From NCBI RefSeq assembly GCF_029227915.1, contig NC_079880.1, positions 20,338,501 through 20,402,500 of the forward strand: a stretch of 64,000 bases of DNA. The letters run 5' to 3'. Numbering within the stretch: the first letter of the stretch is position 1; each line of letters starts with the position of its first letter. The notes beneath the pieces were generated by a model that was not told where the DNA came from, made no database searches, and saw only the letters and a list, made by a program, of their open reading frames with translations. The translations under genes and the position numbers were made by a program. Positions 2,958 to 57,112 of this stretch are shown in pieces. The DNA is from Hydractinia symbiolongicarpus. Lineage: Eukaryota; Cnidaria; Hydrozoa; Anthoathecata; Hydractiniidae.

Positions 2958-3152
2958 TGCTGATATGGTCAGCTGTCCAGAGGTTACAGCCAAGACTTAT
3001 AAGAAGTTTAACCATTTCAGTTCTTTGATGCTTTACAGCTAGGTGAAGTGGCGTTGCTCCTCTATCACTTGTCATGTCCACCATCTCCGGATGTGTTAAC
3101 AAAAATATTCGTAAGCCTTCGACATCTCCTTGTTGTATGCAATGGTACACAC
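2677..3152 (-). CDS. Ankyrin-repeat exon of the HEPN-like/ankyrin gene
   Basis: An exon of 158 codons in the minus direction, encoding about four ankyrin repeats. Clear landmarks are two copies of TPLHLA (DRGATPLHLAVKHQ and GQTPLHLASSNG) plus helix ends such as VKLLISLG and VKLLLSYGVDV. The exon starts after an AG acceptor at 3154-3153 with phase 1, which matches the donor of the exon at 3402-3507. It ends at the strong donor AAA|GTAAGT (2677/2676). A short terminal exon starting at 2370 after an AG, ending in TAA at 2347, would close the frame after seven codons, but this last step is weak. Ankyrin repeats mediate protein binding; fused to HEPN-like regions they occur in expanded animal families linked to innate immunity. 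Confidence 0.75.
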
Positions 3153-3401
3153 CTAATGGGAATTATTATCATGATTTTTAGTGAATCTTTTTAAAAGGGT
3201 CTGTGATAAGTGGATTATTTGGGGAAATAAAGTGCAGCGTCTCTTTCTTTTTTTAAAAAAAGAAGTATTAATTTATTAATTTTGACAAATGTGTACGACA
3301 GGCTCAAAAACTATATCAGAAACCTTTGTTAGGTAAAAACATAAAGCTTTGGAGAGCAATTGTTAATATACTTTTTTCAGGAAATTAATTAATTTTCCTA
3401 C

Positions 3402-18837: not shown

Positions 18838-19024
18838 ATTAAACGTTTTTACCGCCATTAGCTCGACTTTTGTGAAAGTCACTAAAGTCGAAAACCAACA
18901 GCCGTTTCGTAACCCCTTCAAATATTTAGCTGTCAATTATTTATTTTTAAACACCCTGGTATTTTACTCGGTGCAGTGATTTAAAATGGAACAGGACTAT
19001 TTACTAAATCATAATATGTTTTAT
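18838..19024 (+). repeat. ~190-bp dispersed repeat, copy 1 (partner at 42551-42740)
   Basis: The two copies share TTATTTATTTTTAAACACCC, then TGGTATTTTACTCGGTGCA / TGGCATTTTACATGGTGCA, and AAATCATAATATGTTT. Copy 1 ends exactly where the inverted ankyrin duplication begins; copy 2 ends at the splice acceptor of an unidentified gene's exon at 42749. A small internal dyad (CGACTTT / AAAGTCG) is present in both. Confidence 0.75.
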
Positions 19025-19030
19025 TTGGAA

Positions 19031-19310
19031 AATGGAATGCGTACCACAGAGCTGCCAATAATGATTGCAAAGAATGTCTAAGTTTACTGCTTCAGCGCGA
19101 CAATTCTGAAATAAACAAAACGAATGATGAAGGACAGACACCATTGCATCTAGCTTCTTCAAATGGCAATGTGGAATGCGTTAAACTATTGCTTTCATAT
19201 GGCGTCGAAGTTAACATCCAGAATGATGACGGTGAAACGGCTTTGGATGTTGCTGGCAGATCTAATTCCTTAAATGAAAAAGAAGTACAAAATCTTATCT
19301 TGCAAAAAAA
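19031..19310 (+). pseudogene. Truncated ankyrin-repeat exon copy
   Basis: Carries the last two ankyrin repeats (GQTPLHLASSNG, VKLLLSYGVEV) in an intact frame up to a GTGAGT donor near 19311. The part coding for the first two repeats is missing, and no upstream exon or start codon is attached. Read through the donor, the frame stays open to a stop at 19494. It is most simply a gene fragment from the duplication. The unbroken frame shows the duplication is recent or that the fragment has been captured by a transcript. Confidence 0.7.
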
Positions 19311-20225
19311 AGTGAGTAGAATTAAATTATTTATAAACACATATAAACAGATATGCAACGGATGTGCAATTGGAAACACAGTTTTTCAAAAGTTACATAG
19401 TACCGACCCTACCTGCCCGCTTTACGGAATAACAATTAAAAACCCATATCCAACTACGTTTCTATCGTTTGACATTGACATTGAACAAGTTTAAACAAAA
19501 TATATACAAAAGAAATATCAGAAATAACCACGCCATAATTCGAAAATATACAATAATTAAAACGAGAATTAAATTTGTACTAACCATTCTTGCATCTTTG
19601 GATTTTTTGAGACTTAGTTTGATTTGACGGTAAGTTATTAAAACTTCTTACACACTGCAATGAAAACCTTTGTTTAAACTTGATAAAAAGCTTCCAAAAA
19701 GCTTGATTTTAAACCTTTATAAAAACCTTCGTCCTTGATTACTTGAACGGAAATGCGTTTTTTCTAATAAATAATAAATAACACTTAAGACACAGAAGAT
19801 AATATTAATATATTATAACCATTAAAATAGAAGTTTGTATTTACGCAATACTAAAAAATGCACATGTTATGAAGTATATATGTCAGATCATGAAGCCCAG
19901 TTAACCTGTCATCTGTACACTGTCATCTTAAGAGCTTAAAAGAATAAAAAATCGTTGTTACTATAAAAAAAATTGTACAGCTTCATTATTTATCCGCAAC
20001 ACTTATATTAGCATAGCAACTCATCTAAAACGAACTTTTGTATCGGGGATTCCATGATGGTTGTATTTGTCCCTTTTTTTCGTTTTTTTTTTATTTTATT
20101 TTTTTTATTTTAGAACCAATAAAAACCATCTATATTACCATCATGACGAAGATTTTAAAAACGAAAATATCAAGGAATTGGAATGGAGTCAATTATTTGT
20201 TCAGCCCGTTCTTGGTTGCAAGGGA
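19031..20225 (+). repeat. Inverted duplication, copy 2 (partner at 1767-2957)
   Basis: Reverse-complement copy of the 3' half of the HEPN-like/ankyrin gene and its downstream flank, about 16 kb from the original. Small differences are scattered through it (for example GTGAGTAG at the splice donor where the original has GTAAGTAG). It begins within the ankyrin exon without its first half, directly beside the repeat at 18838-19024. Confidence 0.85.
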
Positions 20226-20346: not shown

Positions 20347-20586
<240 letters not shown>

Positions 20587-23149
20587 TATATTTATTGAGT
20601 AGTACTATTCTATCATAAAATTTAAATTGCCATAATTTTTTTTCTATTTGATTAAAGGAGGTAACCTTTCATATATGGTGTACTTATAAGTTGTTTATTT
20701 CATATACCAAAGGATTTTATCCAAAAATTATTTAAACGCTAAAAAAGTAATACCATGTTAGAATAATACTACTACATTAAATTGGCAATAAATTCTTACC
20801 CATAATCCCTTTCACACCCAGATTATATTTTTTGGGGTAAGTTTTAAATGCCCTTTAACACTACAATAAAGATTTGGAGTCTCTTTTGTTTTATTGTTAT
20901 TATTTTTCAATTTGCCGAAAATTCAAGTAAAACATATCTCAGCTTACTCGATGCTCTAAATCACGGAAGCAAGTTTCAACATTTCAGCGAAAATTCTTCC
21001 TACGTTAAAATATAGTGAAATAATTAAAAAATAATGTTGGAAATAGAAGTAACATGACTGCAGCTGTATAATGATAAACTTTTTTTTATATTATTTTTCC
21101 TAACAGGTACCTGCTGCGACGCATTTATCTCTAATGTTAGAATAATACTACTCGAAAAATCGAAAGTTTGTACAGTAATATTTCTCTGTTGAGCTATGCA
21201 ATGGAGGTGTAGCTTATTTTGCAGATGAGTTCAAAGACAGGAGAATAATCGACAATCGAAGTTACAATGCCACGTGACCAGCTAGCGCTATTTTGCGGCT
21301 ACGTTTTCTATCTCAGTTATATAAATTTTTACCCTTTTTTGTTACAGAACCCTGTTTGAAGACAACGTGATTTTGTTATTTAGAACTAACTATAAATGAA
21401 TATTTCTTAAGAAAAAAAACTTCATTCAGTCAAGTAAGCATTTAGAATAGTTCTTAAGTATTCGCATGGCTGTTTGTGTCATTTCAGTCAGGTTTGGGAT
21501 TAACACTATTCGGTTCGCTCCCTGACTAACACCTCCCGCCCCCTTTCCCCCTCTTCTTTTTGCTATGTAGCATAGCTATGATACTATTTGAGTTTTCGTA
21601 TTTATCTATTAGACACCTGCCTACCAAATATTTAGGTTACATACCTCCCAGAGCCTTAGATATTGGCCATTTTTGGACACTAGCCCCCAAATTTCTTTGA
21701 GATCCTTAAGATCCGTAAAATAAAATAACTTTCGCTAGGATGATACTTGAAACTTGTGACTAACAACATAACTTCATTTTATTAACAAAAATCATTCTAG
21801 AAAGTTTTCACACGTGGTTAACAGGATTTTTGCGGATTTTACCCAAAAATCAGGAAAAATTGCATTTTCGGGCAATAGGAAATACGAAAAAACGGAAGAT
21901 ATGTTGTTAAGCAACTTTTATTTGGCTGTCAGAAACTTCAAACAGAATGTTAAAATTTCGATCTAGTAATTTATTTCTAATCAAAAATGATATTACTTCA
22001 AAGAAAGAAACTTTAGCGAAAGAAATTTCGCGATTTGTGGCCCCAATCGCGAAAGTTTATTTCCGCAAAATATGTTGACACAGCCTACTCGCGAAAGTTA
22101 ATTCTCACGAATTTTATTTTCTGTGTAGCTAATTTCTTTTGTAGAAACATGTACTTCACTGAAAGACAAGAAACAAAAATAGGACAAATGCTGTCAATAC
22201 CACCGCCCATTGCGAAAGGTAATTCTCGCAAAAAGATTATAGAAATGACAGATTGCGAAAGTTTTTCCCGTGAAAATAATTGAAGGGTGTCATTCGCTAA
22301 AGTTTTTTCCCTTGATTTCGCGTTTTTTGACTCGCGCACTTGGTATAAATTATGTCTGTCATATGAAAATTAAAATCCATGCCTCAAATGATTGCTGTCA
22401 GCATTACTTCTTGCTAACGTCAGCATTTTTTTAAAAAGAAGATCTATTGTTCGACAGATATTTTTATCAATATTTGTTTAAAATTATTCAAATAAAGTAT
22501 TATTGTGATACTTTAATGACATTCAACTATGTAACCACTATTTATCGATTTACTCAGGTGCCAATTAGACAAAAAGTCCGCAGAGGTTGATTCACCTTTT
22601 TAATGAGATGTTGCTTATTTAGTTTATTTTTGGTTGTAAAGAATCCTTTTTTACTACTTTGAATCAAAATAAATAATTTCACTGGGCGCTAGAATAAAAA
22701 AAACCCTGATAAAAGACTAGGGCGTAAATGGGCGTGACTGCAGAAAAACATTAACGCCACAGGGCATTTTTTTTCCTTTAATTCCAAAATAAAAAAAAAT
22801 GAGCTACTAAAAATTTCTGGGTCGTTGGTTTAGCTAATCCTTAAGTATGCTAGGTAGAGCTTGCATTGACGTAAGATAAATGGAAAAGTGATACGATATG
22901 TATGTTTCGTATGTTCAACGATTGTGTTTAATATGCATTGAAAAATACAAAGTGATCTTCTTTACTAAAGTTGTGAAGTTCTTAGCAATCGGTTCCTTTC
23001 TCCTAAAATGCATGGCAAAATCAAATGTGTGTAAAAAAGTGTATCCAAAAAGACGTCGAAACATCGTATGAAGAATTTATTGTAAATTGTCTGTGTAGGA
23101 AAGGTGTCATTTCCTCTGTTTAAACACATTATATATTTCAGACATACTT
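20587..23149. other. Non-coding stretch with GCGAAAG dyad cluster
   Basis: No gene recognised. The motif GTTAGAATAATACTACT occurs at 20758 and 21136. Between about 22012 and 22325 the word GCGAAAG recurs, mostly as a half-dyad with a TTCTCGC- or TTCCCG-like partner 10-14 bases on (for example GCGAAAGTTTATTTCCGC at 22047). These overlap short open frames on both strands that I do not regard as genes. Confidence 0.4.
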
Positions 23150-23939: not shown

Positions 23940-24480
23940 AACGCCCATGGCATTAAACGGCATTTAGTTCACAAAAAATTTTGATGCCACCATCATGTTC
24001 AGCATACTTTTTTTATCAACTGTGCCATTTTTTGTCGAAAATAAAGTATTTTTAAATTTTAGCCTAAAATAACATTTAGGTGACAAAAAATCAAACATTT
24101 GTAACGTCATCATTTTTAGCATACTTTATTTGTTAACTGTGCCAAATTTGGCCGAAAATGAAGTGGTTTTAATTTTTGGACCAATTTTGGCCTAAAATGG
24201 CATTTAGGTGACAAAAATCAATATTTTGATGTCACCATTATGTTCAGCATACTTCTTTGTGATCTGTGCCAAATTTTGTCGAAAATAAAGTAGTTTTAAT
24301 TTTTAGACAAATTTTGGCCTAAAATGACATTTGAGGTGGCAAAAAACCAAAATTTTGATGTCAGCATCATGTTCAGCATACTTTTTTGTTAAGTGTGCCA
24401 AATTTTGTCGATAATAAAGTAGTTCTAATTTTTGGACCAATTTTGGCCTAAAATGACATTTAGGTAACAAAAATCAGAGG
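23940..24480 (+). repeat. ~116-129-bp tandem repeat, about four copies
   Basis: The unit includes TTCAGCATACTTTTTTGTT, TGTGCCAAATTTTGTCGAAA, AATTTTGGCCTAAAATGACA and TTTAGGTGACAAAAA. Copies start near 23996, 24112, 24241 and 24369. A diverged outlying copy lies at about 25105-25310. No coding potential. Confidence 0.85.
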
Positions 24481-25375
24481 AACGTGAAATCCCAGGGTCG
24501 ATTTTTTCTCAAAAAATGCTCCAAAAGAAAAAAACGACGGTTTTAAAGAATTTTCTACGCCTTCGGGCGCGGAAATTCAATTATCTTTTCAATTGTAAAC
24601 GAACTCCAACACTTTTCGTATGCTCTTAACGTACTTTATTAATATTATAGGGCTGGCATTAATTACGTGGTGTAGATATTATTTTTATTTGTAAATAGAC
24701 AAATCAATTATCTCTTTCTAAAAAAAAATTTTTTTAGAAAAACAAGTTGGTTTATCAGACTAAAAGAAAGAGAAGATTGCACCGCTAGACCTTACTTCTA
24801 TGCAAATCATTTGTCTGTCGCATTGTTTTTCCCCATTTTCCCACCAGATAACGAAAGTTTATTCTTCATGAAAAAGTCCATAAATCCTGAAAAAATTGCA
24901 AACTATTCATCCAATAAATAGCCTACTACAACTGCTATATTTAAAAACAAAATTTTCTTTTGAAACAGTGTTCCTGTGACCTCCTGAAAACTAATACCCG
25001 AATAAGTACATTGGTCTATTCGAACCACACATCACAATTCAAGATAGGTGGCATTTATATAGGTCTGTTGTGTTTATGTTTCCTGCGTAGTTTGTGAAAA
25101 AAAAGAAAAATGATTTTTAAACTTGCTGAAAGCAGTACTTAGGTCACAAAAAATGAGTTTTTAATGCCATCATTATGTTCGGCATACTTTTTTTTGGCTG
25201 TGCTAATTTTTGTCTAAAAAATCGTTTTCAAATATTTCGACCAAATAGTGCCTAAAGTGATACTTAGGTGAAAAAACACATTTTTTGGTTTACTATTCCA
25301 AATTATGTCGAAAGCACAATCTGTCAAAGTTACCCTTTGGAAATGGATTACAGAGAGGTCTTATTATCACAACAG
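24481..25375. other. Non-coding stretch with one outlying repeat unit
   Basis: AT-rich, with a small hairpin-like run (CTAAAAAAAAATTTTTTTAG) near 24719. The diverged copy of the 125-bp unit is at 25105-25310. No gene recognised. Confidence 0.35.
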
Positions 25376-25511
25376 GTTAGAATAATACTACTTTATGTTA
25401 GAATAGTCCTGCTGATAGAATAATACTACTCTGTTAGAATAGTACTACTAAAAGGTAGAATAGTACTACTATGTTAGAATAGTACTACTAATGTTAGAAT
25501 AGTACTACTAA
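25376..25511 (+). repeat. Array of the motif GTTAGAATAGTACTACT
   Basis: Seven copies spaced about 16-22 bases apart, drifting from AATAATACTACT to AATAGTACTACT towards the right, where they merge into the AAT microsatellite. Single copies occur at 20758 and 21136 (same orientation) and 20598 (inverted). Confidence 0.85.
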
Positions 25512-25877
<366 letters not shown>

Positions 25878-26780
25878 CATAACCATAGGAGATTATTTTT
25901 GTTCCGCTGCAGCATTCGTTTGTATTACTTAGCAGAACATGGCTAACAGGCAACTGCGAGGTGAAATTTTGAAATGCGCCCTGAAGGCATGCATCTTCCA
26001 ACCGGTAATAAGAAAATATCAGGTAGTAGCCGTCCGTGCGATGTGGGGAAGTGATGTTGATGCCCGCGAGGTCATTTGGGGCAAGAGAATGAAGATGGAG
26101 AACAAATTGCTTAGCAACGAACAAGTATCCTGTTTTTTTTCTTGTATTACCTATATGGCCAGACCTCGTAAGAGAAAGTCGATGAGGAATGAAGGGGAGG
26201 AAGAAGAAGGAGCCGACTCTAGCAGTGAAGGTGATAACAGAAACGGCGCAAATGCGCCTGAAACATTTCCCGGCATTTCTTTCTGGATCGCGTGCGACTT
26301 GCCAAACTGTACCTTAAGTCAATTTGAAACAAATTTGTCGAAGTCTTTTATGCAAGCCGGATTGAATTTAACAACGTGCAATGCTATACAGACAAGAGGT
26401 AAATACTTGAACCTTTTAGTACTTGAAATACTGTCAATGTTCTTCGAATATTTTACGCCACATTTTTATATTTGTAGGCAAAACCAGTGCATTCCAAGCA
26501 TTCTCAGGATCGTTATACCAAGTCTTGAAAGACCACAATAGGGAAGAACCAAAACGGATAGTTGAGATATCCCATCGCACAATGATTAGGAGTGCAGCTA
26601 GAGATGAAGGTGTTCAACTTGACCACGTTGCTGTTATGGAAAGCGAACAGTACTCGATGAAACCCTGTCAGCTAATTCTAACAAAAAATATTGATAAAGA
26701 GGTATATCAAGATGTAATTCGTGGTTTATCCGAAATCAGATTTACATCGCTTGATTTAAAAGTAATTGATAAATCGGAAG

Positions 26781-26840
26781 GTAAGTCGCCACGAACAAAT
26801 TTACTTACTTTCTCCAATAATAAGACTAAGTTTTTTGTAG
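26781..26840 (+). other. 60-nt optional intron inside the helicase gene
   Basis: Begins GTAAGTCG and ends TTTTTTGTAG, both good splice signals, yet its length is a multiple of three and it contains no in-frame stop. Retained, it adds 20 residues (first ones KSPRTNLL). Splicing is suggested by the signals; retention cannot be excluded from sequence. Confidence 0.5.
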
Positions 26841-27340
26841 AAGTTAAAACATGTTTTTACATTGTTACACGCATAGGCACAGAAGTAACTATTCCCGTTA
26901 AGCCAACTAACAAACTTTGTCAATCTGTGGATATAGTTCGAAGGATGATGGAGAGGAATAGCTTTGGACTGTGCAATGGAGGTGTATATAAAAAAATAGG
27001 AGAAAGCAGATACACATACGTTTACTGTTGTTCGGTGAAAAGCTATCTCTATCGCTCGTTGAAAAACAAAGCAATCGCCAACGAAATTACGCCAAATTTA
27101 CGAGAGTTGGTATTTTTGCTGTCAGACGGCGAGTGTCAAATAATTGATCAAATAACTTTGCATTACAATTACATTGAATGCTTGCCAAAAGGAGTTTGTT
27201 ATAACATCGCCAAAAAATGTTTCGATGTCAAGCCAAATTTAAAGGGATCTCCCCGAGCATTCGTACGGTACTTTCATCGTGAGGGAAAAAATCCCGAACC
27301 AAAGCCATTTATAGAAGGTAATTGTTTTTACTTTTCTTTT

Positions 27341-27722
27341 AACGCGTTGTAACATATCGAGGTGGTAGTTGTAACGTGTTGTAACGTATTGTAACTTGTT
27401 GTAACGCATTGCCAGTGAAGAAAATGTGTTTTTTGTTCCTTTAACGCGTTGTAACATATCAAGGTGGTAGTTGTAACGTGTTGTAACGTATTGTAACTTG
27501 TTGTAACGCATTGTCAGTAAAAAAAATGTTGGCTCTTTTTCTTTTAACACGTTGTAACATATCAAGGTGGTAGTTGTAACGTGTTGTAACGTATTGTAAC
27601 TTGTTGTAACGCAGTGTCAGTGAAGAAAATGTGTGTTTTTTTATCTTTTAACGCGTTGTAACATATCAAGGTGGTAGTTGTAACGTGTTGTAACGTATTG
27701 TAACTTGTTGTAACGTAGTTCT
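27341..27722 (+). repeat. Iteron-like array 1: TTGTAAC heptamers in four ~100-bp units
   Basis: Four tandem units of 99-104 bases, starting near 27341, 27441, 27544 and 27648, fill the intron just before the exon with Walker A. Each unit holds five TTGTAAC heptamers, four of them at exactly 10-bp spacing (GTTGTAACGTGTTGTAACGT, continuing ATTGTAACTT, GTTGTAACGC). About 20 heptamers in total, all in one orientation. The regular helical spacing resembles origin or repressor sites that load a multimeric protein side by side. Binding by the helicase or by the Myb domain of the neighbour is inference. Confidence 0.85.
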
Positions 27723-28476
27723 AAAAAAGGTGCACTGAACTACATTTGTAGGTGTCGAAAATAGCTTTCCAGATAGAAATGTACAGTTGCGTTTTTATTA
27801 GAAATGGTACCAAATTTTGCTCGCCGGTCAGTATCCCATGAAAGAAAAGAAATTGTTGCTGGTAGGTCCTCCTGATAGTGGAAAGACTAGTTAGTTTGCT
27901 CCATTTCAAGGTAATTAAATAAAGTTCGTGAAAACTTCTGACTTTTAGACGGCACTTACTGACATACATTTGTCCTTTTAGGCATTATTCCAGAAATGTA
28001 CATTGCTGGCGTGGTTCGGGATGGTTGATTCTCAGGCCACCTGATAAATAGAAATACACAAGTCGTATTTATGGATGAATGGACTAGCGACAGTCTATGT
28101 TGTAAAGATGCAAAAAGAATATTGCAAGGTAAGTCGATGTCGATGCAGTACATGAACATTTACTTTGAATAAAATGTGGCAATTTGCAGATGGGATACCA
28201 CTTTCTCTTATAGGCGGCTTGGTTATGATCCCGCAAAAACACAAAGAACCGGCCTGTTTTCAATACAATTCGGGTTTTTTTAAAACAACTAATATAATGC
28301 CGGACTTCGGAAATGGTGTAGATGGTGAGGCTATCCTGCGTCGTCTTGAAGTTTTCGAAACTAAGACACTTCGAGTAAAGGACAATAGCATAACAAGTAA
28401 GTATCTCATGAAAATAAATGATAACAATGGTGTAAATCAATATGCATAAAAATAAGTAGTGACTTTTGTCCCGTAG

Positions 28477-28914
28477 AGTGGATGAGAATGCACTGCATGG
28501 AAATATTTGTGTACGTTGCCAGCCAGTTGAAAGACATCTTGCTTTTCACCAGCGAAACCAATGTTGCGAAGAAAAATCAAGTAGGCGCTGTGTACAACGA
28601 CGTTGATTGCGATCCGTCGGTCTTTTTGGACGAAGAGCAAACATTGGAAGCATCTAGCAGTGGTCTAAGCACACGAGTTCAGATTGAGAATGCAGTTCCG
28701 CAAGAGGCTATCGACTATGCCATTATTGCGGCCGACGATAGGGATGGCATTTTGTACCATGCGCTTAACTTTGATCATGAACTGTTTGACAAAGAAAACA
28801 AGTTACACAGTGCTGAATATATGCGCAAAATGTACGAGATAGCCGCTGGGGCATGGGAGGAAATCTGCCCATTAATTAATAACGATGAGACCGCCGTAAA
28901 AGGATCAACTGGCA
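28477..28914 (+). CDS. Helicase gene, C-terminal exon (frame before the break)
   Basis: Joined in phase to the SF3 core exon ending at 28396 through a 80-base intron (GTAAGTAT ... CCCGTAG). Encodes KWMRMHCMEIFVYVASQL, then a region rich in acidic and polar residues up to AAGAWEEICPLINND. Near 28915 the sensible reading moves to another frame (GSDTFYDTWLLATNSC), which continues to 29364. Either a further small intron or a one-base indel explains the change; I cannot decide which. Confidence 0.55.
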
Positions 28915-29364
28915 GGGTAGTGACACGTTCTACGACACGTGGTTGCTTGCTACAAACTCCTGCCGCAATTGCTTCCCGACGAAAGAAATGAAGGAGCTCT
29001 ACCCTGATTGGGCACAACTAATTGAGCAAGACGAAGACGAAGGAGAAGGTAGTAGCCACGACCGCGAAGAGAACGAGGAAGAAGAAGAGGAAACAAGCGA
29101 AGAGGAGGAAGGTCATAGGGAAGAAGAAGAAACAGAAGAACATGAAATCAATGCTCAGTCGACAAAACTTGTTTCCACTGTTAAGCAAGAATATATGCCG
29201 TTTTGTCCAGCAAATAACAGTACTGCTTTTATAGACCTCGTGTCAGATGATGAAAGTGTTCCTGAAATTTCTTCAGTAAAATTAGAGCTATTTTCCGCAG
29301 ATAATTCAACCACTTCTCTCGATTGTGATGTTATCTGCATTAGTTCGGACGAACAAGACAATTA
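28915..29364 (+). CDS. Acidic C-terminal tail with SUMO-interaction-like motifs
   Basis: Continues the helicase protein in a new frame. FYDTWLLATNSCRNC and FPTKEMKELYPDW form a cysteine-containing block, followed by a long glutamate-rich run (29038-29148). Near the end stand two hydrophobic cores followed by acids, AFIDLVSDDES and DVICISSDEQDN, which fit the SUMO-interaction pattern of three or four V/I/L residues next to acidic or serine residues. The frame ends at the TAA at 29363-29365. The function is inferred from motif pattern only. Confidence 0.55.
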
Positions 29365-29450
29365 AAAAAAAACTTTTTTGCGTTTTCCTTCCCTCATATC
29401 CCACCACATACTCCTTTTCTAAAGTGACATGCGAAAAGCGGTTTTCTCTA

Positions 29451-29905
29451 CAGAAATAGGTTACAAAGCGTTACAACGTGTTACAAGGCGTTTCAATCAG
29501 CAAGTCCATGCGTTACCAGGCGTTACAAGAATCACTCTAGCCATTTTCAAATATTTCACAGTCATTTTTTTATGGAAATAGGTTACAAAGCGTTACAACG
29601 TGTTACAAGGCGTTACAATCAGCATGTCCATGCGTTACAAGGCGTTACAAGAATCACTCTAGCCATTTCCAAAAATTTCACAGTCATTTTTTCATGGAAA
29701 TAGGTTACAAAGCGTTACAACGTGTTACAAGGCGTTACAATCAGCATGTCCATGCGTTACAAGGCGTTACAAGAATCACTCTAGCCATTTCCAAAAATTT
29801 CACAGTCATTTTTTCATGGAAATAGGTTACAAAGCGTTACAACGTGTTACAAGGCGTTACAATCAGCATGTCCATGCGTTACAAGGCGTTACAAGAATCA
29901 CTTTA
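29451..29905 (+). repeat. Iteron-like array 2: GTTACAA heptamers in four ~121-bp units
   Basis: Units begin near 29451, 29572, 29693 and 29815. Each contains up to six GTTACAA heptamers. The first four sit at exact 10-bp steps (GTTACAAAGC, GTTACAACGT, GTTACAAGGC, GTTACAATCA), then a further pair GTTACAAGGC GTTACAAGAA. GTTACAA is the reverse complement of the heptamer in array 1, so the two arrays face each other around the ATPase exons. In the first unit two heptamers are mutated (GTTTCAA, GTTACCA). No gene overlaps it. Confidence 0.85.
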
Positions 29906-30012
29906 GTCATTTTAAGTAGGAATGGGGATGAGTGTGCGTTTAATGAATGTCGCATTTGCGCCATTATTTGCATACTTAAAGGCTTACAGCGTATAAGTTT
30001 CACCTAAATTGT

Positions 30013-30375
30013 GTGGACGCTTATGTGTACGCTAAAATGGTGAATGAAGAGGCAGTTGTGGTAAACCTTTCGGATAACGAATGCTCAGCATCTAAGGAGG
30101 TTTTACCGTTCTCACATTCCTGTTCAACGCTGGCAATTTCCGTGGAAAAAAATATTGTTTGCCTATCAGATGATGAAGTTTTCCTAACTATACCGATAGC
30201 GGCTTTGAAGGGAGAACCAAGTTTTTGCGAACCGCCTTCACACACGAGGGTACTTAATACACCAGATTATTGGCCAAATCGTAAGAGGAAAAAAAGCCTT
30301 TATGTGTACGCCGGTTTTGACTGTAACAAAGTTAAAAGACTATTTGAATATTCTGGTTTTCAAAAATCTTTGTAA
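30013..30375 (+). CDS. Small protein with two SUMO-interaction-like motifs
   Basis: A 120-codon open frame; a second in-frame ATG lies nine codons in, at 30037. It contains AVVVNLSDNE (residues about 14-23) and NIVCLSDDEV (about 47-56), each a run of aliphatic residues followed by serine and acids, as in SUMO-interaction motifs, and a basic NRKRKKS segment near residue 89. The same type of motif closes the helicase gene upstream, and the frame lies between iteron array 2 and the convergent recombinase gene. It ends 39 bases from the recombinase stop. It could be an independent small protein or a last exon. I do not recognise the family. Confidence 0.5.
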   Translation: MDAYVYAKMVNEEAVVVNLSDNECSASKEVLPFSHSCSTLAISVEKNIVCLSDDEVFLTIPIAALKGEPSFCEPPSHTRVLNTPDYWPNRKRKKSLYVYAGFDCNKVKRLFEYSGFQKSL

Positions 30376-30413
30376 ATTTACAAAGTTATTTTTATTATAA
30401 ATACATTTTAAAC

Positions 30414-32054
30414 TTATATAAATTTTTTTGTCTTCGCTCTAACCGCCAATGTACTAGCTTTACGGCTACAATGAAAGGAGTAGTTAGGATCTGCGAGAAT
30501 GGAAGTCCATTTTGCATTGCCATATTTTTGTAGCCCAGCTTGTAAAAACTTGTCCTCCATGGCACTAAAACTAACTCTTTTCTGTCTCGTTTGAACAGGT
30601 GTTTCGTGTTCCAAAGTACTTCCAGACGTTTTCACATTTTTGGTGTTACTATTGATTTCGCTTACAGTTAAAGTACACGTTGTTTGATCTCGTAATTTAT
30701 CCATACATAACCTGGCTTTTGCAGCTATATTGCGCGATTCAGTCTTCTGGTAATGAACTTTAGCTACCTGCGACGTGTGTTTTTGATCTTGAGAAAGAAT
30801 TGCTTGTTCTTTCGTTTCTAAGTGTGCAACACTTTCGGTTTCGATGATTTGCCTATATCGTGTAGGATTTATATACTTACGAATTGCTTGATAAACAATT
30901 CTACCGAATACGTCCGAAATACGCGTCAACTGCTTACCATTTCGACACACTAGTAGATAATCGTTGGTGGGGTTCAATCTTCGTCGTACATTGTCAATGT
31001 ATTCGTTTATTAGTGTGAGTACATCTATGGAAAAATAAAGAGAGTCAAATCCGTATTTCTCCGCAGTTTTAAAGACATTCTGATCTATAAAACCATCCTC
31101 TTTCACGCCTTTAATCATTGTTACTGTAAGAGTTTAATACGTCATGGGTCTTGAAGCCTTCACCATTAAAAATAATACAGCTACTATGAAGAAAGTCGAA
31201 AATGATAAATCGTGTGCTGCGACACATGCTCTTGCGTTTTTAGCATTTAACACAATTTGTTTATATTTTTCACTATGGTATGGTATCACCTTTTGTAAAT
31301 CATATAGTGTCGCCCAACAGTCTATACTGTTTAGATATTCAACACTTAAGATACACTTCCATTCAGCTTTCATTTTACGAAGGAGGAATTTCTTAACACG
31401 GTGCAAATAAATCTCTGCAGCAACAAATACCGACAAATTTTTTTCAGTCGTACCTGTGCTTCGTCTGTAATCAAGCATGTGCCCAATAGCATTCATGTAG
31501 CCAATTATTCCTAAGAAGCCAACCTTCCATTGGTCTCTCAAAAAATCTACGAAATCAGAAAGCATATTAATAGAGCCAACACAGTAGTCGATATCAGGGA
31601 ATGGTACTTCCCATACCGAAGGAGAATCCTCGCAGCAATATTTGGCATACTTAATTTTACAAGTTATTTGATCGGCCTGAGAATGATCTTTACCACCACC
31701 TGGACTTTTTAACCATGTCCTAAATGCAACTGCCAAATTACATGTTTTAGCAAAAGACGGCATTGAAAATGTGGAGGCGCGCTTTCTTTGGGGATCTTTT
31801 ATGCGATTTCTCGTACTGAAGTGGGGAAGTACTTCGTCGATATTCGGTCTTTTATCGAAATAATAAAACCATCCATGACGGTTATAGACATGTTTTCTAC
31901 ACCCTCTTTTACTTCCATACGACTCGCTGTCACAATCAGCCACAGGACAACAAAAGCGGTTATCTTTATCAGGCATTAACGTAAGCCTTTTCGATCTCAT
32001 TGAGGCTCCCAATGCCTCTTTCCACGCAGGCTTTTGCAAGACTCGTTTTGTCAT
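30414..32054 (-). pseudogene. Tyrosine recombinase with C2H2 finger and Myb/SANT domain, one nonsense codon
   Basis: Read on the minus strand from the ATG at 32054, chosen because a splice acceptor (TTTGTTTCTAG) lies just upstream; an upstream donor AAG|GTAAGTTG near 32213 suggests a 5' UTR exon. Order: a C2H2-like finger (CPVADCDSES to HVYNRHG), a helical core, an in-frame TAA at 31134-31136, then the recombinase C-terminal half with YINPTRYRQIIETES, DQKHTSQVAKVHYQK (arginine, histidine and tyrosine positions of a Crypton-like YR), then a Myb/SANT domain (FSAMEDKFLQAGLQKYG, WTSIL). Five codons after the stop the same frame resumes, so the break is a single base change. Tyrosine recombinases cut and join DNA through a tyrosine. 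The product would integrate or excise the element; this copy is inactive unless read through. Confidence 0.7.
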
Positions 32055-32084
32055 TCCGATTTCTTTAAAGTTCTCTAGAAACAA

Positions 32085-33891
32085 AATTTATAGAAAGTTT
32101 ATAACAATATTAGTTTTTAACAAAGCATAGAAAGTAGGATAAAAAAAAGAATTCATTTGAATAAAAAAAGAATCCTATTTACTATAAATTTAAAGTTTGA
32201 ACAACTTACCTTATACTTTACTTCGTATACAAAGTATTAGTTGAGAAACTTCTCATTAAAACAATTCCTTTTTATAATGAAGGACGCTCTCCATAGCAGA
32301 GTTAAGGTAGCAGCGAAAACGGAATTATTTCAAGTGGCACAATATAAATTAGACTGCAGAGTATTCATAATTAAATAACTATTCCTCAAGATAATCATTT
32401 CGCATATATTATCGTTATGATATATGAAAGAATTCAACGGAACAAATAGAGTGGAACGATATATACCGTCACATAAATTCCATCAAATTCCCTATGGGAA
32501 CGACACGTTCTTGTCTTGTGAGTAACAATAGAACAATACATTCCGCTTTTATAACAATGTTTTAATAAGTTGTTAAAGAACACCAAGTTCCTTAAAAATG
32601 GTTCTTTTTTAAAAAATTGGAACATGTAAAGTATTTAATGTGTTTAGGGTGTAAGATAATCGCACATAGAATCACGGACCATTATAATTTCATACGCTAT
32701 ATAACTGTTTCCTCGCTGTTTGTCATTTGTTACTGTGTGGGAAAAAATACGAAAAAAAGTAAAAATGACAGTTATAAATGCAGTTCTTTAATTAACTATT
32801 GTGTCACGAACAATTCCATCCAAGGTACATCGTTTAGTGTCAAAACTCCTCGTGGCTTTTTAGTTGAGGTAATTTATCTGAAGAAGCCTAAGAGGAAGAA
32901 TCAAATGTCACGCAACAATATTTGTTGTTCTGTTGTCTGTCCCAAACACAATTTTTAATTTTTAAAAGATGAGATTACATACAATAGCTCCTACACTTAC
33001 TTATTAAAGTGACTGGGTGACAACATTAAAATCCAAAAATATAACTAGCCAAAGGAAAATCTTATGATTTTTTTGTTTATTTTGCGCCCCAGTAGGTCTG
33101 GTCGGATGTCTTTCGTTTTACGAACTAGCGGTAACAAGACTATTAATTGCAGACTCTTCTTTGGCACTTGTGTGATAAATAGGAGAAAGTGTGAGAATAA
33201 TTATTTCAAATGGAGATGTAGCATCAAGTATTTATAGTATCCCATATACTGGTTATAAATGAAAACCTGCATGAGGGGCTTGCTAAGCGTTATGTAAGCG
33301 CTGGCAGCATTAACATCGGACTACAAACGTTGTAGACCAGTGTTTATAGTCAAAGTTTTTTTCAAATGTTCCTGCGTCTGTTTTGCAATAATGTGTGATG
33401 TTTATAGAGGACTACGATTGGTAAGAAAAGATGTTGACACATAACCGATTTTAATTGCGGCTATTTTTAGATTTACGCATTCTAAAACCTACTTAGTATA
33501 TCTATGTAGAGAAGTTGCATTTTCGCAGCTTCCTGACTGCGGTATGTAAGTGTGTTGATGGTTTTGGCAACTGTGAAAATTGCCCCAAAACTGCTGTTAT
33601 TGCCAACTCTTTTTACCCGTTTTTACAAAATCAGAAATTGTATTTTTTTGATAAATATCAGATTTCGTACTAAATTTGTTCTTTGGCCACAGAAAATATT
33701 TTACTTTTGTAGTTTTTTCTATTTTCTCGGAGGCTAAATTAAGAACTGTTACAGTTATTTTTAGAAAAAGGTGCGCACGCAGTAATTAAATAATAATAAA
33801 AGAATAACTGAAGTATCCGATAATGTGTGAAAATAATGTGATACGTGTTACACTTTTTTTTCGTTGCAATAAAGTAGGTATAATTTTTGTT
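32085..33891. other. Mostly non-coding; one unidentified small open frame
   Basis: Contains the likely promoter and 5' UTR region of the recombinase gene (32085-32330). An open frame at 32617-32958 (plus strand) ends with a basic segment (KKPKRKNQ) but has no recognisable domain. The rest is AT-rich without features. The right boundary of the SF3/recombinase element lies somewhere here and could not be fixed. Confidence 0.35.
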
Positions 33892-34046
33892 TTTTGACCT
33901 TCTGGTCTGAATGATTTCATGTGAATCCATCTGCTTAAGAATTATGAACCGTGTTTAATGACGCTTCTTCAGCATTACCAAGAACTTCAGCATTATTTTC
34001 TGCATTAAACAGATATTCTTTACAGTCACCAAGTAAAAATTACAAA
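33892..34046 (+). repeat. ~150-bp dispersed repeat, copy 2 (partner at 15066-15215)
   Basis: Near-identical to the copy at 15066-15215 in the same orientation, including GGTCTGAATGATTTCATGTG at the start and ACAGTCACCAAGTAAAAATT at the end. Flanks are unrelated. Confidence 0.8.
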
Positions 34047-35245
34047 AAAATTATTACAGTATCCTTTCCATTTTTTGTATAAAGAGAAAACAAAAATCAG
34101 AGAAATAACTGAACGCAAGAGGTAAGAAAAGGATGTTAAGGAGGTGAATGGGAGCTTGGTACCTTGTTGGTCGTTTAAAATTCCGCATAATAGCGTAGTG
34201 TAAACATGTACACTTTTTCTGTATAAAAAGGAAATCAACTCATTGAACCGAATATAAAATATTATGCACTTACCTCACCTCAATTTTGTCAAAGAGTTAT
34301 CAGTCAAAGAGTTATCCGACAAGAAACCGCCATGATAGGCTACATTTTGGCTTTGAATTTATTGGTGAGTTTCTCACAACAGGCAGGTTAGTATGTAAAT
34401 TATATTTAGCTTCAGATAAAATAATTAGATGAATTAATTAAATTATGACTTAGCGTTTACAAAATAATCTTTAAGGAATGTCAAATCTTCAATAGAATGT
34501 GAATTAAAATTTTGGTTAATTTGGCAAAACAATGTTCCCATATTTTTTATAACTTTCCCATTATTTCACTTATCTTCCAATATACAAATTTTTACAAAAT
34601 TTTACCTTTTTTTAAAAATTAACAAATGCATTTTTCTTTTAATCTTCTTTCTTTTATTTCTTACATTTACTAACAGTAAGATATCTGCTTACTGTTGATT
34701 AAAAAAACTGGAGGACCACTTTTTGGCCAGATAATAACTTTTAAAAAGAAGAAATATCCAGAACGTGTCAGAGCATATTAAAGTGAAAATTTTTTTTCTT
34801 GGCTTAAACATAGTGGAAGACATTATTATGTTTCCATAGCCCATCATAGGCCCCCAAACTAAATCTTGACAAAGCTTATTTTAAAGAAAAGATGAAAAAT
34901 ACGGATGTTATTATACAGTCGTCAATATTTGAAATCCACGGTAATTCGCCCAATGTATATAAAATTTCGGCATCAGTAATTCGCGCTTCCTTCCTCGTCT
35001 TTTAGCATGAAGAAATAAATTACTTAGCGGGGAATCCAAAATAGAAAAGCGGACAAAATACGTTTATGAAGACAAATTTCGCAATGTCTTCCAACATTCA
35101 TCAACATCAAATTTCCAGTTTTGTTTACAGCTTTACTTGTGCTTGAACACGTTGATAATAGAGTAGCTAGTTCACATATTTGCCAAACAATGGAATATCT
35201 TTCTTTTTATTGTCCAAAAATTCAACAAGAAATTTTTTTACATAA
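34047..35245. other. Non-coding stretch
   Basis: AT-rich, no gene recognised. A short ATG ATAGGCTACATTTTGGC frame at 34332 encodes a small hydrophobic start (MIGYILALNLLVSFSQQA) that resembles a signal peptide followed by a GTTAGTATG donor-like site, but no further exon could be attached. Confidence 0.3.
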
Positions 35246-40474: not shown

Positions 40475-40518
<44 letters not shown>

Positions 40519-41850
40519 CTATCTATCCTATCTATCCTATCTATCCTATCTATCCTATCTATCCTATCTATCCTATCTATCCTATCTATCCTATCTATCC
40601 TATCTATCCTATCTATCCTATCTATCCTATCTATCCTATCTATCCTATCTATCCTATCTATCCTATCTATCCTATCTATCCTATCTATCCTATCTATCCT
40701 ATCTATCCTATCTATCCTATCTATCCTATCTATCCTATCTATCCTATCTATCCTATCTATCCTATCTATCCTATCTATCCTATCTATCCTATCTATCCTA
40801 TCTATCCTATCTATCCTATCTATCCTATCTATCCTATCTATCCTATCTATCCTATCTATCCTATCTATCCTATCTATCCTATCTATCCTATCTATCCTAT
40901 CTATCCTATCTATCCTATCTATCCTATCTATCCTATCTATCCTATCTATCCTATCTATCCTATCTATCCTATCTATCCTATCTATCCTATCTATCCTATC
41001 TATCCTATCTATCCTATCTATCCTATCTATCCTATCTATCCTATCTATCCTATCTATCCTATCTATCCTATCTATCCTATCTATCCTATCTATCCTATCT
41101 ATCCTATCTATCCTATCTATCCTATCTATCCTATCTATCCTATCTATCCTATCTATCCTATCTATCCTATCTATCCTATCTATCCTATCTATCCTATCTA
41201 TCCTATCTATCCTATCTATCCTATCTATCCTATCTATCCTATCTATCCTATCTATCCTATCTATCCTATCTATCCTATCTATCCTATCTATCCTATCTAT
41301 CCTATCTATCCTATCTATCCTATCTATCCTATCTATCCTATCTATCCTATCTATCCTATCTATCCTATCTATCCTATCTATCCTATCTATCCTATCTATC
41401 CTATCTATCCTATCTATCCTATCTATCCTATCTATCCTATCTATCCTATCTATCCTATCTATCCTATCTATCCTATCTATCCTATCTATCCTATCTATCC
41501 TATCTATCCTATCTATCCTATCTATCCTATCTATCCTATCTATCCTATCTATCCTATCTATCCTATCTATCCTATCTATCCTATCTATCCTATCTATCCT
41601 ATCTATCCTATCTATCCTATCTATCCTATCTATCCTATCTATCCTATCTATCCTATCTATCCTATCTATCCTATCTATCCTATCTATCCTATCTATCCTA
41701 TCTATCCTATCTATCCTATCTATCCTATCTATCCTATCTATCCTATCTATCCTATCTATCCTATCTATCCTATCTATCCTATCTATCCTATCTATCCTAT
41801 CTATCCTATCTATCCTATCTATCCTATCTATCCTATCTATCCTATCTATC

Positions 41851-41886
<36 letters not shown>
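40146..41886 (+). mobile_element. tRNA-derived SINE with a giant expanded tail
   Basis: The head (40146-40218) is tRNA-like: CGCCGT pairs with ACGGCG as an acceptor stem, an A box TAGATTAGTGG lies at 40153-40163, and a B box GGTTCGATTCC at 40196-40206, giving an internal RNA polymerase III promoter. A body of about 250 bases follows (AGCCCCGGGTTAACCCAAGC, GAGCATTAAATACTCT, CTCCTGGAAATAATAGACAG). Two more copies of the same body occur at 43372-43637 and, inverted, at 45821-46169. The tail begins as TATC repeats at 40474 and becomes the 9-bp array. Mobilisation would depend on a LINE. Confidence 0.9.
40474..41886 (+). repeat. SINE tail: TATC run expanded into ~148 copies of a 9-bp unit
   Basis: Eleven or so TATC units (40474-40517) are followed by an apparently perfect array of ATCTATCCT from 40518 to about 41852, then more TATC units to 41886. 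The 9-bp unit equals TATC plus TATCC, so it arose by a one-base gain in the tetranucleotide tail. It gives an open frame of repeated Ile-Tyr-Pro, which I do not treat as a gene. Confidence 0.95.
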
Positions 41887-41887
<1 letters not shown>

Positions 41888-49230: not shown

Positions 49231-52109
49231 TATCATCATCATTCTCGGCTTAACGTTCGTTTTCCATGCTAGCATGGGTTGGAAGGGGTATATTGATGAA
49301 CCTCTTTCAATCTGATGTAGACTGTGTTAGATCTAAACTCAACTTCCGCTCTATCAAGTCTGTCCTTATAACCTCCTGCCAAGTCTTTCTCGGTCTGCCT
49401 CTATCAAGTCTCTACACTTTCTTACCCAATTATCCTCCTCCATTCTTTCCAAGTGCCCCAGCCAATTCAATCTTCTTATCTGGATAACATCTTTAATTCT
49501 ACAGAGACTTAGCCTGCTTCTTAGCTCATCTGAACTCTTTCTGTCTCTCAGACTGGCATTACACATCCACCCAACCATTCTCATATCATTCCTTTCTAAA
49601 CGGTCAAAATCTTCCTGCTTCACTGCCCATGTCTCACTACCGTACCAACATAACACTTCTTACACAGGCCTCATACAACCTACTTTTTACCTCAATTGAC
49701 AGGACTCTGCTAGTCAACAAAGGAAGTAACTCTCTGAACTTTTTCCAAGCAGAACATATTCTGCAAGTAACACTTCTTCCAACACCCCCTTCACTGCCCA
49801 ACATATCACCTAAGTAGCAGAAGTTCTCAACTATCTCTAACAAGCCACTGTTGTACATCATTAAAGCTGGAAATACTTCATTCTCTATAATCTCACCTTT
49901 GCAACGCTTGCATACAAACTGAATGTCCGCTCTTAACCTTCCACTAATACTACTACACTTCTTATGTACCCAATGCTTGCAAGTCTGACAAAAAATTGAG
50001 TTACTACCAACCCCTTTCCTGCAAATTCCACAAGGCCACTTTCCAACTACAAGGTCAAACTTAGCTGCAATGCTACTAATCATGACTTTAGACTTTGCTG
50101 TGTTTACCTTTAGCCCTTTCTCTTCTAGTCCTTTCTTCCACTTCTCAAACTTTTCAACTAATTCTTCCATCGACTCTGCTATGAGAACGAAATCATCTGC
50201 ATACAATAACTCCCATGGACAACCTGTTCTGAACTCCATTAACAGCGCTTCTAATACTAAAATAAACAACAAAGGACTAAGTACAGAACCCTGATGTACA
50301 CCAACATTTACACTAAATTCATCACTAAGTGAATCGTTAATCCTGACACGACTTCTAGCATTGCTGTATATACATAGACTGTACCATGGTAACTAGCCAC
50401 TCATCCACACCTAATTTTCTGATAGCCCACCAAATAACTTTACGTGGCACTCTATCAAAAGCTTTCTCTAAATCTACAAAGGCAAAATAGAGATTCTTTC
50501 TCTTTCCTAAATACTTTTTCTGAAGCTGTCTGAGTAAAAATATTGCATCTGTAGTGCCACGCCCTGGAGCCAAGCCAAGTTGCATCTTATCTATATCAAT
50601 TCTTTCTCAAGTAACTTATCAATCACTTTTTCAATAACTTTCCTTACTTGATCAACTAACTTCAAACCTCTATAGTTACCCCTTTCTAATGCATCGCCCT
50701 TGCCCTTGAAACAATTCACTATTACACTCGACTGCCACTCACTCGGAATAGCACCATCGTTTATAATCTGGTTAGCAAGACTTGTAATAAGCTCAACTCC
50801 AATATATCCAGATGCTTTTACCATCTCTGCAACAATACCTGATACTCCTGCAGCCTTGCCAATCTTCAATTTTCTTCCTGTGTTGATCTGCATAGCTGGC
50901 CCTTCTACAACAGCATCATCAGACAAATTATTCTCGTCCCAATCAAACTCAGTGTTAAGCAACCTCTGATAATGATTCTTCCAGGCTACCCTTTTCTCCT
51001 CCTCTGTGCTAGCCAAAACACCTTCATCATTACGTATACACTTCTCACCTACAACATCTTGATTAGTCTTCTTCATTTGCTTTGCTATCTTGAAAACCTA
51101 ATTGCGCTGGTCTTCCCTTCTTAGCACATCTGCAAATCTGTTTCTCTTTGCTTTTGATTTTGCCTTATACACTGCTGTACGAGCGCGACGCTTAGCTTCT
51201 AAGTAAATATTTTTACTACCACCTGACTTCCACTCTTTCCAAAGTTTCCTCTTTTCCTTTATACACTGGTCAACCTCATTATTCCACCACCAGGTCTGTC
51301 TATGTCTAGCTGGTCCTTTCGTCCACCCACAGGTATCATCAGAAGCTTCTAGAAGACAATTCTTCAAAGTAGTCCAAGTACTTTCAACATTGTCACTATC
51401 ACATTGACCATTGTGGGCTAACTGCTGAACTTTTGCACTAAATTGTGTTGCTATAATCTCTTCCTTCAGCTTCTAGACTTTTTGACGGGGCCTGTACTAT
51501 CCCTTGGCTTCTTTAACACTCTTCAAGATAATATCACAAACCAGCAACCTATGCTGGGAAACACACTCTTTTCCCTGATATAACTTTTACGTCCTTCACC
51601 ACTTTCTTGTCTGACTTTCTAACCAGGAAGTAATCTATCTGTGTCTTACAACCACCTGATTCATATGTTATTAGCCTACTCTGTCTCTTACTGAATGATG
51701 TGTTGCAAACCACCATGTCCGTTGCCATTCCAAACTCAAGCAATCTCTCCCCTTCCTTATTTCTCCTCCCAAATCCATAGCCTCCATGCACACCTCTATA
51801 ACCTTCAGATGACTTCCCAACAAGACCATTAAAGTCACTGCCCACCATGACAAGTTCGGTGTCTCCAAACTTTGATGTGACTGCTATTAACTCATCATAA
51901 AACTTATCTTTATCTTCCTCACTGAGTCCACACTGTGGAGCATAAACTGACAGAAAAGTGACAATCCTATTACCTATCAAAAACTTTATCACTATAATAC
52001 GACTATTAACACGGATAACATCTATTACTTTTATGTAACCTTTATATTGCAGTCTTGTCAATGAAAAATTACTGTTTACAGCATCAAGGCAGGCATTATC
52101 GAATGACAT
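49231..52109 (-). mobile_element. RTE-like LINE, nearly complete ORF with several breaks
   Basis: Minus strand, 5' to 3'. An AP endonuclease part (52109-51549): SVYAPQCGLSEEDKDKF, VGSDFNGLVG, CKTQIDYFLV, missing its first motif, so 5'-truncated. A linker (51367-51098). The reverse transcriptase: LAPGRGTTDAIFLLRQLQ, FVDLEKAFDRV, GVHQGSVLSPLLF, LLYADDFVLIAE. A PHD-like C4HC3 finger (CGICRKGVGSNSIFC to CKRC), then FCYLGDMLGSEGG. A C-terminal WYGSETWAVKQ and RRLNWLGHLERM block to 49366. The 3' end keeps a short ATGATG tail typical of RTE elements. Frame breaks occur near 51500, 51085, 50590, 50360 and 49645, so it is inactive. It sits in the long intron of the unidentified host gene, in opposite orientation. 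Confidence 0.85.
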
Positions 52110-54825
52110 TTTGGGAGTACATTCGTAGTCAATTAAGATTCAGAAGTTAATAGCAAAAATTTATTATTTGTACTAGAGATGAATAAATATATAGCTAGCG
52201 TTACTGAGCACCCAAAAGCCCGCTGTTTGTAATGTAAACGCTGTTTTTTGTATGTCTTCTCTTTGGACGTAGTAGTCAAACTTTCCTTTTTTTTCACAGT
52301 TTAAATTATTATAGCAAAAAACAGCATTAAATGAAATTAAGATGTTTTAATTAATAGAAACAACGAAGATATAGTCGTAATATCCCGCCATATTTCCGTT
52401 TGAAACATATTACACTTGTTCTGAAATAACCTTTCAATTAAAAGTCATAAGTTTTAGTATCATAACAAACGGCATGGACATTTAAAATAGTTAAAGATAG
52501 TTGAAGCACTATGGAGATAATGAAATTTAGAGCAGGAAAGGGGAAATTCTGAAAATTTAGGTATTCTAATTGTCTAGATCTGATACTGTTTCTATAAGGA
52601 AGCGACTAGCTGTTTGAACAAAGGAAAATAAAAAGTAAGACAGCTAGCGAGGTGAAGCTATTTTTGAAAACAAAAACAAGAAGAGGTTGCTGTTGCAAGA
52701 AAGTCTGATTTCAGTAAGTTAAAACGTTTAAATAACAAAGAATAACACAGAAACCTCGATTGATTTATCTGATTTATCATGTTCGGAACTTTGTTGATAC
52801 ACTTATAAAAGCATTATGATGGAAACACAGCTACGGATGCTCTTCCTCATTCATTTTTTTTCTGTAAGGCAAATGAATCCAGCAACCATGTGATCGATTT
52901 TGCCGTGCGTTTATTATCGTATGTTTCTTGCAATGAATTGTAATGGCGGTTCTGTAGGCGAAGCGAAATTGGGGTGAGTTTGCTATTTCTATGAATCATT
53001 TGAACATGTTCTGGTTGTCAGTTTTCTATAAAATTTTCAGGATAATGTTCTCTTATGTATATCTTTCATTTTTTACAGTAAAATAGGCACCTCAAAAAAA
53101 ATTGCCTACATGGTGATTATGCACCTTTAAGTTCCTCTAATAAAATTTTCTTTTGTTTTCACAATTCCTTTTAGAGGAGGAAAATTTGTCCATTAGTTTA
53201 TTTACTGAGTAGTATGGGTGGCAAGTGTCATTCTTCTTAATTTAATTAATAAGTCTAGTATGTTTATTATTGCAAAAAATAATAAATGAACTCTTCCCAT
53301 GGTTATTTATTTATTTTGTTTCAAAAATTCGAAATTTTAAAAATAACCCCTGCTACAATATAAAAACACTCAAGATGGATAAGATGTAAATTAAGTTTTG
53401 TAATAATGCGTTCTGCTTTGTTGTGTCTGAGGGGTAGTCGTTCTGTGAAGGTTAACGTGGAGCCAGCTGATGACTTCAGCTTCGCATGTGACGAAGCCAG
53501 GCTTTGACATTCTGTCTTAGTTATTATAGTCTACATCATCTTCACGAAAAATTTTTAACTCGTTTTTTATATAATATATAAATAATTTTATTACTTTATT
53601 ATGGTGTATTTTATAAACTTTTAAAAATGATATTGTAATTATAAATTAGTATAGTAAAATAGTATTTAGGTCAAAGAAATTCAGCATTTGACAGTAATAA
53701 TAGTGCACCACAAAAAGATTTTCTGATACTGAAAAACTCAAACACATACTAACGCTAGTAGCAACTCTAGCAACTCGTTGTGCAAAAGTAGTGATTTTTT
53801 GGCAAAAATACAATATATATATGCAGAAATTTTCTTTTCAGAAGGTACGAGAAATTTAGGTCGCGTGAAAATGAACAAAAACATAACTAAGAAATTTTGT
53901 AAAACCTCTTTTTCACAGAATTATAAAATTAAATATTGATAATAATCACTATAGTGGTGGCCAACGTCAATCCAACATTGATGAAGCTTTTAGTGTCAAA
54001 AATCCAAGCAAAGTTATACTTTTATAAAGTTAAAACCCTTATTTTGAAAGAAATGAAATACATCGAGCTGTACAATCCGTAGTATGCGAAAATGTCAGGA
54101 ATTAAAGGGATGCGCGTTGTAAGGTACTCTTTCAACCAGAAAATAATACTCGGAACGTAGATAATAATAGAGACTTTCGCGTTGACGCTTTCGGAGATGA
54201 GAAGGCGAACAAAGCAGCTTGTGGGGTTTTTTTTCACATAAAAATAACGGCACTAGTTATGTTGTAAAGAAAATTGTGAAATATTTTTATATATTTCCAC
54301 ACTTGATCTCCCAAAAACAATATTTACATTAACGGTTGCCACTTTTATCGAAGGAAAGTCCAATCGGTCATTCGTGACTTCACACCTTGTACATAGCTCA
54401 CTTAAAAATTTATTGAGAGGTTTGAGTGTTAAAGAATTTAACAACATGCGAAAGTAGGTAAATAAAGTAAAACTTCCAGGTAAAGATACCGTTTGATAAA
54501 ATAGTTCAGATTTAGAACATATATCAGTAAAAAGACTCTTCGCAACAGTACAAAAGTTTTTAACCACAAACAACCAAATGCCTTAAAGAATGAAGAGTTA
54601 TATTTTCCCCTGTTAGTTTTGGATTGGTGACTTAAATTTACTTCCACGATGCAACAAAACAAAGAAGAAACTTGAGTTTTAGGAAATAATTAAAAATTGT
54701 ATAATAAAATTTTTAAAAAAATGAGTTGAGGGGAGGGTACGAAAGACGAGGGGTAGGGGGGTACAAAGCCTATTTATTAGCATTTTTAACTAACTTTTAT
54801 TCTCGGTCCAAACTTATTTGTTCTA
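52110..54825. other. Non-coding intron sequence
   Basis: AT-rich, no gene recognised. Minus-strand frames at 54022-54662 are overlapping, hydrophobic and without motifs. Confidence 0.35.
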
Positions 54826-55922: not shown

Positions 55923-56151
55923 CTCGCTTTTTAATTGGCTAATTCTATTGTTCTTTTCTCACGTGGTCCGTAGGGAAAGCCCTTTTCATCCAAGTATTCC
56001 AGCGAATGGTTTCACTTACCCTAACAAACATTAGTAAACTGGGGGTTTTCCGCTGAGTCATTCGTTTGCGTATAAGCTTTAGTGTGAGAGAAACTTATTT
56101 TATCAACTTGAAGAAGAAAGCTTAGTTAACTAGGCTATTTATATCAGCGTT

Positions 56152-57013: not shown

Positions 57014-57112
57014 AATCCGGTCACCACGACATAACCAGTGCAAAAAAAACATAATCGGACCATGCTTACATAATCTGGCTGACCCGGTTGTAAACAGGCC
57101 GTTTTCGCAATA

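Follow-up and report, generated by a model that had tools for sequence, protein, structure and literature searches.

A probable decayed mobile element of Hydractinia symbiolongicarpus with an SF3-type helicase gene, a tyrosine recombinase gene and paired iteron arrays

A chromosome of Hydractinia symbiolongicarpus carries what is probably a decayed copy of a mobile element of about 6.2-6.4 kb. It lies in the 64 kb stretch of DNA analysed here (the window) as a compact block running from the end of an AAT microsatellite (25882) to about 32.3 kb. We consider it probable, with room for doubt, that this is a single capsid-less integrative replicon, now decayed and resident in cnidarian chromosomes. 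A sequence-only reading had proposed an element with a helicase, a recombinase, a small ORF and iterons at 25900..32330; these parts are all present, but the helicase and recombinase genes are broken. GC content is 0.34-0.47 across 26.0-31.9 kb, compared to 0.29-0.33 in the flanks of approximately 1 kb (AAT array excluded), and reaches up to 0.36-0.37 in more distant flanks. The features are as follows.

25498..25882, no strand: (AAT)n microsatellite adjoining the helicase gene on the left, probably host sequence bounding the element
25939..29365, plus strand: broken SF3 helicase / initiator gene, with relatives P0121-P0127; exons placed by eye
25939..26780, plus strand: N-terminal region with a predicted Rep/NS1-like origin-binding fold, examined on the Clytia relative P0122
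25939-26398, 26478-26780, 26877-27317 and 27752-27910, plus strand: helicase exons 1-4, placed by eye
27318..27751, plus strand: intron 3 with iteron array 1, four units of about 103 bp
27752..28396, plus strand: SF3 ATPase core in exons 4-6, with Walker A, Walker B, sensor and arginine-finger-like arginines
27982-28128, 28214-28396 and 28477-29365, plus strand: helicase exons 5-7, placed by eye
29231..29353, plus strand: helicase tail with SIM-like IDLVSDDE and VICISSDE
29453..29912, plus strand: iteron array 2, four units of 122 bp
30037..30375, plus strand: small ORF of 112 aa with two SIM-like motifs
30414..32054, minus strand: tyrosine recombinase gene with a C2H2-type motif, an Xer/Cre-like core and a TRF-like Myb end
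32080..32330, minus strand: probable recombinase 5' leader and likely right edge region, with a 7-bp inverted repeat at 32213-32237

A possible leader intron is visible by eye in the last of these regions, and the inverted repeat is only a lead to the element end. A second, similar AAT array is found at 20347-20590, and a neighbouring motif is common to both arrays.

By its motifs, the plus-strand gene belongs to an SF3-type helicase family. Its ORF matches LOC130621979 of H. symbiolongicarpus, and the motifs first picked out by the sequence-only reading (GPPDSGKT, VVFMDEW, FFKTTN and AILRRLEVF) are all encoded by the plus-strand exons of 27752-28396. The family comprises seven matches (P0121-P0127), and three named cnidarians are among its hosts. 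The SF3 hallmarks, namely the Walker A lysine, Walker B DE, sensor asparagine and arginine finger, are kept in 3/3 relatives, with A replacing the second glycine of Walker A in P0122. No Pfam match was obtained for the helicase relatives searched, and no PDB sequence match for P0122 or the helicase profile. D5 SF3 structures were among the top matches of a low-confidence helicase model, with low TM-scores. Searches by tblastn returned nothing for P0122 against phages or for P0126 against plasmids, and no relative emerged from scans of IMG/VR that used either the recombinase or the helicase. The gene had also been proposed to be spliced, and the exon 2-3 and 3-4 joins do occur as predicted in P0121, but the same protein reads through predicted intron 1. 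By eye, the translations of relatives enter intron sequence at the predicted ends of exon 1 (P0123), exon 2 (P0123 and P0125) and exon 3 (P0125 and P0127).

A nicking (HUH), primase or origin-binding fold had been named as something to look for in the region before Walker A. We see a likeness to Rep/NS1 origin domains, as a weak match for P0122; in the fold comparisons of both the recombinase and the helicase N-terminus, folds absent from the match lists exclude nothing. Nuclease residues are absent. Helicase residues 1-260 hold a single conserved histidine column (KDH, in 6/6 rows reaching the position), and the sole tyrosine kept in at least three rows is Y46 (3/4). An HUH nuclease was rejected, as there is neither an HUH pair nor a conserved catalytic tyrosine, and a primase (AEP) was set aside on inspection by eye.

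On the minus strand, the gene encodes a genuine tyrosine recombinase. The YINPTRYRQ motif, DQKHTSQVAKVHYQ and the Myb end are present on that strand at 30414-31133, and the ORF matches LOC130656435 of H. symbiolongicarpus. The core has an Xer/Cre-type catalytic fold, and across 44 relatives the catalytic residues are conserved in 39-44 (R in 41, K in 44, the second R in 41, H in 39 and Y in 39), while HxxR begins with H in 13 relatives and with N in 26. The N-terminus carries a C2H2-type motif. At the C-terminal end, a TRF1 profile match and a TRF1/2-like Myb fold were found, and 31/44 relatives have a Myb-like end at E <=1. The pairing of a recombinase with a Myb domain is borne out.

The window copy is dead, because the helicase gene has three in-frame stops (exons 4-5) and a frame change inside exon 7 and the recombinase gene has one in-frame stop, while the Hydractinia recombinase relative P0001 lacks that stop and the long helicase relative P0122 is present in Clytia. 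Protein identity to Hydractinia helicase relatives is 95.4, 98.0 and 97.3% for exons 1, 2 and 3, and identity to recombinase relatives is 98.0 and 98.7% for the two halves. This 95-99% identity between Hydractinia copies suggests that amplification was fairly recent.

Both heptamer arrays are confirmed, with counts far above chance. There are 20 copies of TTGTAAC and none of GTTACAA at 27318-27751, and 22 copies of GTTACAA and none of TTGTAAC at 29440-29920. Chance would give approximately 8 of each over the whole window, and outside the arrays there are 5 GTTACAA and 3 TTGTAAC. Both arrays had been placed between the helicase and the recombinase, which is correct for array 2, but array 1 is inside a helicase intron. 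Each unit of array 1 has five TTGTAAC at offsets 0, 22, 32, 42 and 52, and each unit of array 2 has GTTACAA at offsets 0, 10, 20, 30, 52 and 62, with 4/6 retained exactly in unit 1. The layout common to both is four heptamers 10 bp apart plus a 22 step, in opposite orientation, with one extra heptamer in array 2. Unit lengths (about 103 versus 122) and spacers have otherwise diverged. Common phasing despite diverged spacers argues for the assembly of a bound protein on these putative sites.

The arrays might instead be ordinary minisatellites without an origin role, a reading that is compatible with any other and that we hold to be rather unlikely. In the assembly of H. symbiolongicarpus, tandem repeats are reported to account for 15.7% under the criteria of that paper (PMC11067881). 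Array 1 is lacking in P0125, as its exon 3-4 gap is only approximately 82 bases and its tail, in a frame-shifted reading, scores 111-130 when fitted to exon 4, versus a shuffle maximum of 75 (three references in that frame, 100 shuffles per reference). The same word also forms arrays in unrelated viral contigs: an IMG/VR search for the iteron word gave 36 stretches, the clearest of which (L026) is on a contig that looks tailed-phage-like by eye and has no visible relation to the element. Against this, the two arrays have the same spacing and strictly opposite orientation even though their spacers and unit lengths differ.

The small plus-strand ORF does contain the VVVNLSDNE motif and has no match in Pfam or PHROGs. 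With two SIM-like motifs here and two in the helicase tail, there are four in total. Shuffled sequences reached two such motifs in 0.025% and 0.005% of 20,000 trials, figures that are flattering since the pattern was defined after the motifs were seen; in a control set, the pattern occurs 3 times in 45,295 residues. The motifs are improbable by composition, but they are absent from P0122 and P0124, which both extend past the helicase core. P0121 and P0123 are also without them, but end before that region. That SIM-like motifs make contact with SUMO is a guess.

The coupling of all these parts in a single element, as first proposed, is favoured by the occurrence of both families, the paired arrays and several further observations, but element ends were not found. 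The principal competing account is that a multicopy Crypton-like recombinase transposon lies beside the remnant of an SF3-helicase element, the two being unrelated chance neighbours. In keeping with this, the recombinase family has 153 matches versus 7 for the helicase, an excess due in part to the splicing of the helicase gene and to length limits of the search, and the Hydractinia recombinase cluster P0001 is on 6 contigs versus one for the helicase cluster P0121. A comparison of the left flank (24480-25497 or 25883-26000) with the right (32055-34500) found no element ends, the longest word in common being 12 bases and words of at least 11 being A/T-rich. However, the helicase relative P0123 and the recombinase relative P0004 are each attributed to a contig 24,956 bases long (source ena), and from this equal size we infer a second contig on which the two genes are paired; there is only one such coincidence among 7 helicase and 120 listed recombinase matches. 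In addition, the small ORF and the recombinase gene converge with only 38 bases between their stop codons, the two main genes show similar divergence from their Hydractinia relatives (95-98% versus 98-99% identity), and iteron arrays flank the helicase core on both sides. Chance neighbours are accordingly, in our judgement, an unlikely explanation.

No description of this gene set was found among the titles and abstract openings listed for a literature made up mostly of open-access papers, and an unpublished Repbase entry may exist. In papillomavirus E1, polyomavirus T antigen and the E1-like Reps of cressviruses, an SF3 helicase follows a Rep-derived origin-binding domain, with repeated sites. 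Unlike these, the helicase relatives searched have no Pfam or PDB sequence match, and the element has its helicase beside an integrase and no visible capsid gene. Integrated archaeal SF3 elements, which use integrases, differ in their archaeal hosts and primase-helicase fusions, and have no spliceosomal introns. They resemble the element in being integrated and in encoding an SF3 replication protein, described as an MGE-specific primase-SF3 helicase (PMC6563490). CryptonA is also similar, as Cryptons are DNA transposons encoding a tyrosine recombinase and are reported in cnidarians (PMC3212892). However, animal Cryptons are described there as encoding a recombinase only, with no C-terminal domain, whereas here the recombinase has a Myb end and is accompanied by an SF3 helicase, iterons and a small ORF. 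With a Myb end and a neighbouring helicase, the recombinase is neither a sole gene nor free of a C-terminal domain.

Neither a capsid gene nor a polymerase was found. No capsid-like ORF or packaging ATPase was seen by eye among the 46 ORFs of at least 110 aa in the window, and neither was matched in the ten ORFs scanned. Polinton-like viruses, whose hosts are mostly protists, differ in having capsid proteins and a packaging ATPase, with a helicase-polymerase fusion in several. They are also larger, at 14-40 kb (PMC12220804). The likeness is that some have an SF3 helicase and some a tyrosine recombinase, and in those with a recombinase, circularisation is thought to precede integration (PMC4642659, PMC12220804). 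E1-like Reps are likewise reported in sea anemone data, where cressvirus fragments are joined to cnidarian genomic sequence (PMC11071296). These reports lend something to the idea of an endogenised small DNA virus or polinton-like virus with an SF3 helicase and a recombinase, its capsid genes lost or never kept here, but the lack of a capsid gene among the ORFs surveyed, the lack of relatives in the IMG/VR scans and the intron positions common to relatives, which suggest long nuclear residence, make such an origin improbable.

Under the favoured reading of a single integrative replicon, the recombinase would excise the element as a circle and reinsert it by site-specific strand exchange. Since the two main genes are directed inward, their 5' ends would flank the attachment site once the circle has formed. 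The helicase would bind the 10-bp-phased GTTACAA iterons through its nuclease-less Rep-like domain and load there as a hexamer, after which the circle would be copied by host polymerases; papillomavirus E1 and polyomavirus T antigen provide the comparison for such loading and copying. Through the SIM-like motifs, element DNA may be directed to nuclear sites rich in SUMO. Episomal replication, and not cut-and-paste alone, would raise the copy number.

Overall, the element looks as if a self-inserting plasmid had become an animal transposon. We put forward tentatively, as a possibility short of an even chance, that it represents a new class of mobile elements in animals, integrative plasmids with a chromosomal phase (zinc-finger/Myb tyrosine recombinase) and an episomal phase (E1-like helicase and inverted iterons), perhaps present in cnidarians before the hydrozoan-octocoral split. 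If true, animal transposons could multiply via their own replication origin, beyond cut-and-paste or RNA copying. This would link Crypton-type integration, polinton-like viruses and the replication of small DNA tumour viruses, and would offer a eukaryotic origin system, open to testing, that has iterons and a dedicated initiator. Such elements could also account for some of the repeats in Hydractinia genomes, a large fraction of which is reported as unclassified (PMC11067881).

Five features of the window around the proposed helicase–recombinase element are set out below, by position.

2599-3162 and 19015-19494, opposite strands, ~16 kb between them: pair of ankyrin-repeat ORFs
20347-20590 and 25498-25882: long arrays of AAT, one at each position
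40478-41887: array of a 9-bp CTATCTATC unit, 157.6 copies, 99% match
49637-52139: non-LTR retrotransposon fragments
57094-58187: ORFs in which an RT-like stretch and an HSFRQGGAT...LLGDWKSDAMYLYLH stretch are recognised by eye

The two ankyrin-repeat ORFs are very alike when compared by eye, and probably represent a duplicated gene. Each AAT array has GTTAGAATAGTACTACT-like repeats close by, which suggests that the arrays belong to one repeat family. Among the non-LTR fragments, a single ORF combines a reverse transcriptase with a PHD finger (Pfam RVT_1, E 2.9e-15; PHD, E 1.9e-07), and an ORF at 56126-56599 resembles it by eye. The ORFs at 57094-58187 look, by eye, like a DIRS-type tyrosine recombinase retroelement; a Pfam scan of these ORFs gave no match.

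Outside the window, the heptamer TTGTAAC is found nine times in 10-bp steps at positions 50-136 of L026, an IMG/VR contig, close to one contig end. By eye, this contig looks like a tailed phage. Finally, in P0124, a 567-aa relative of the helicase from a JGI source (contig 2125), several exons' worth of helicase can be read in one frame, indicating that the source is intronless or RNA-derived.
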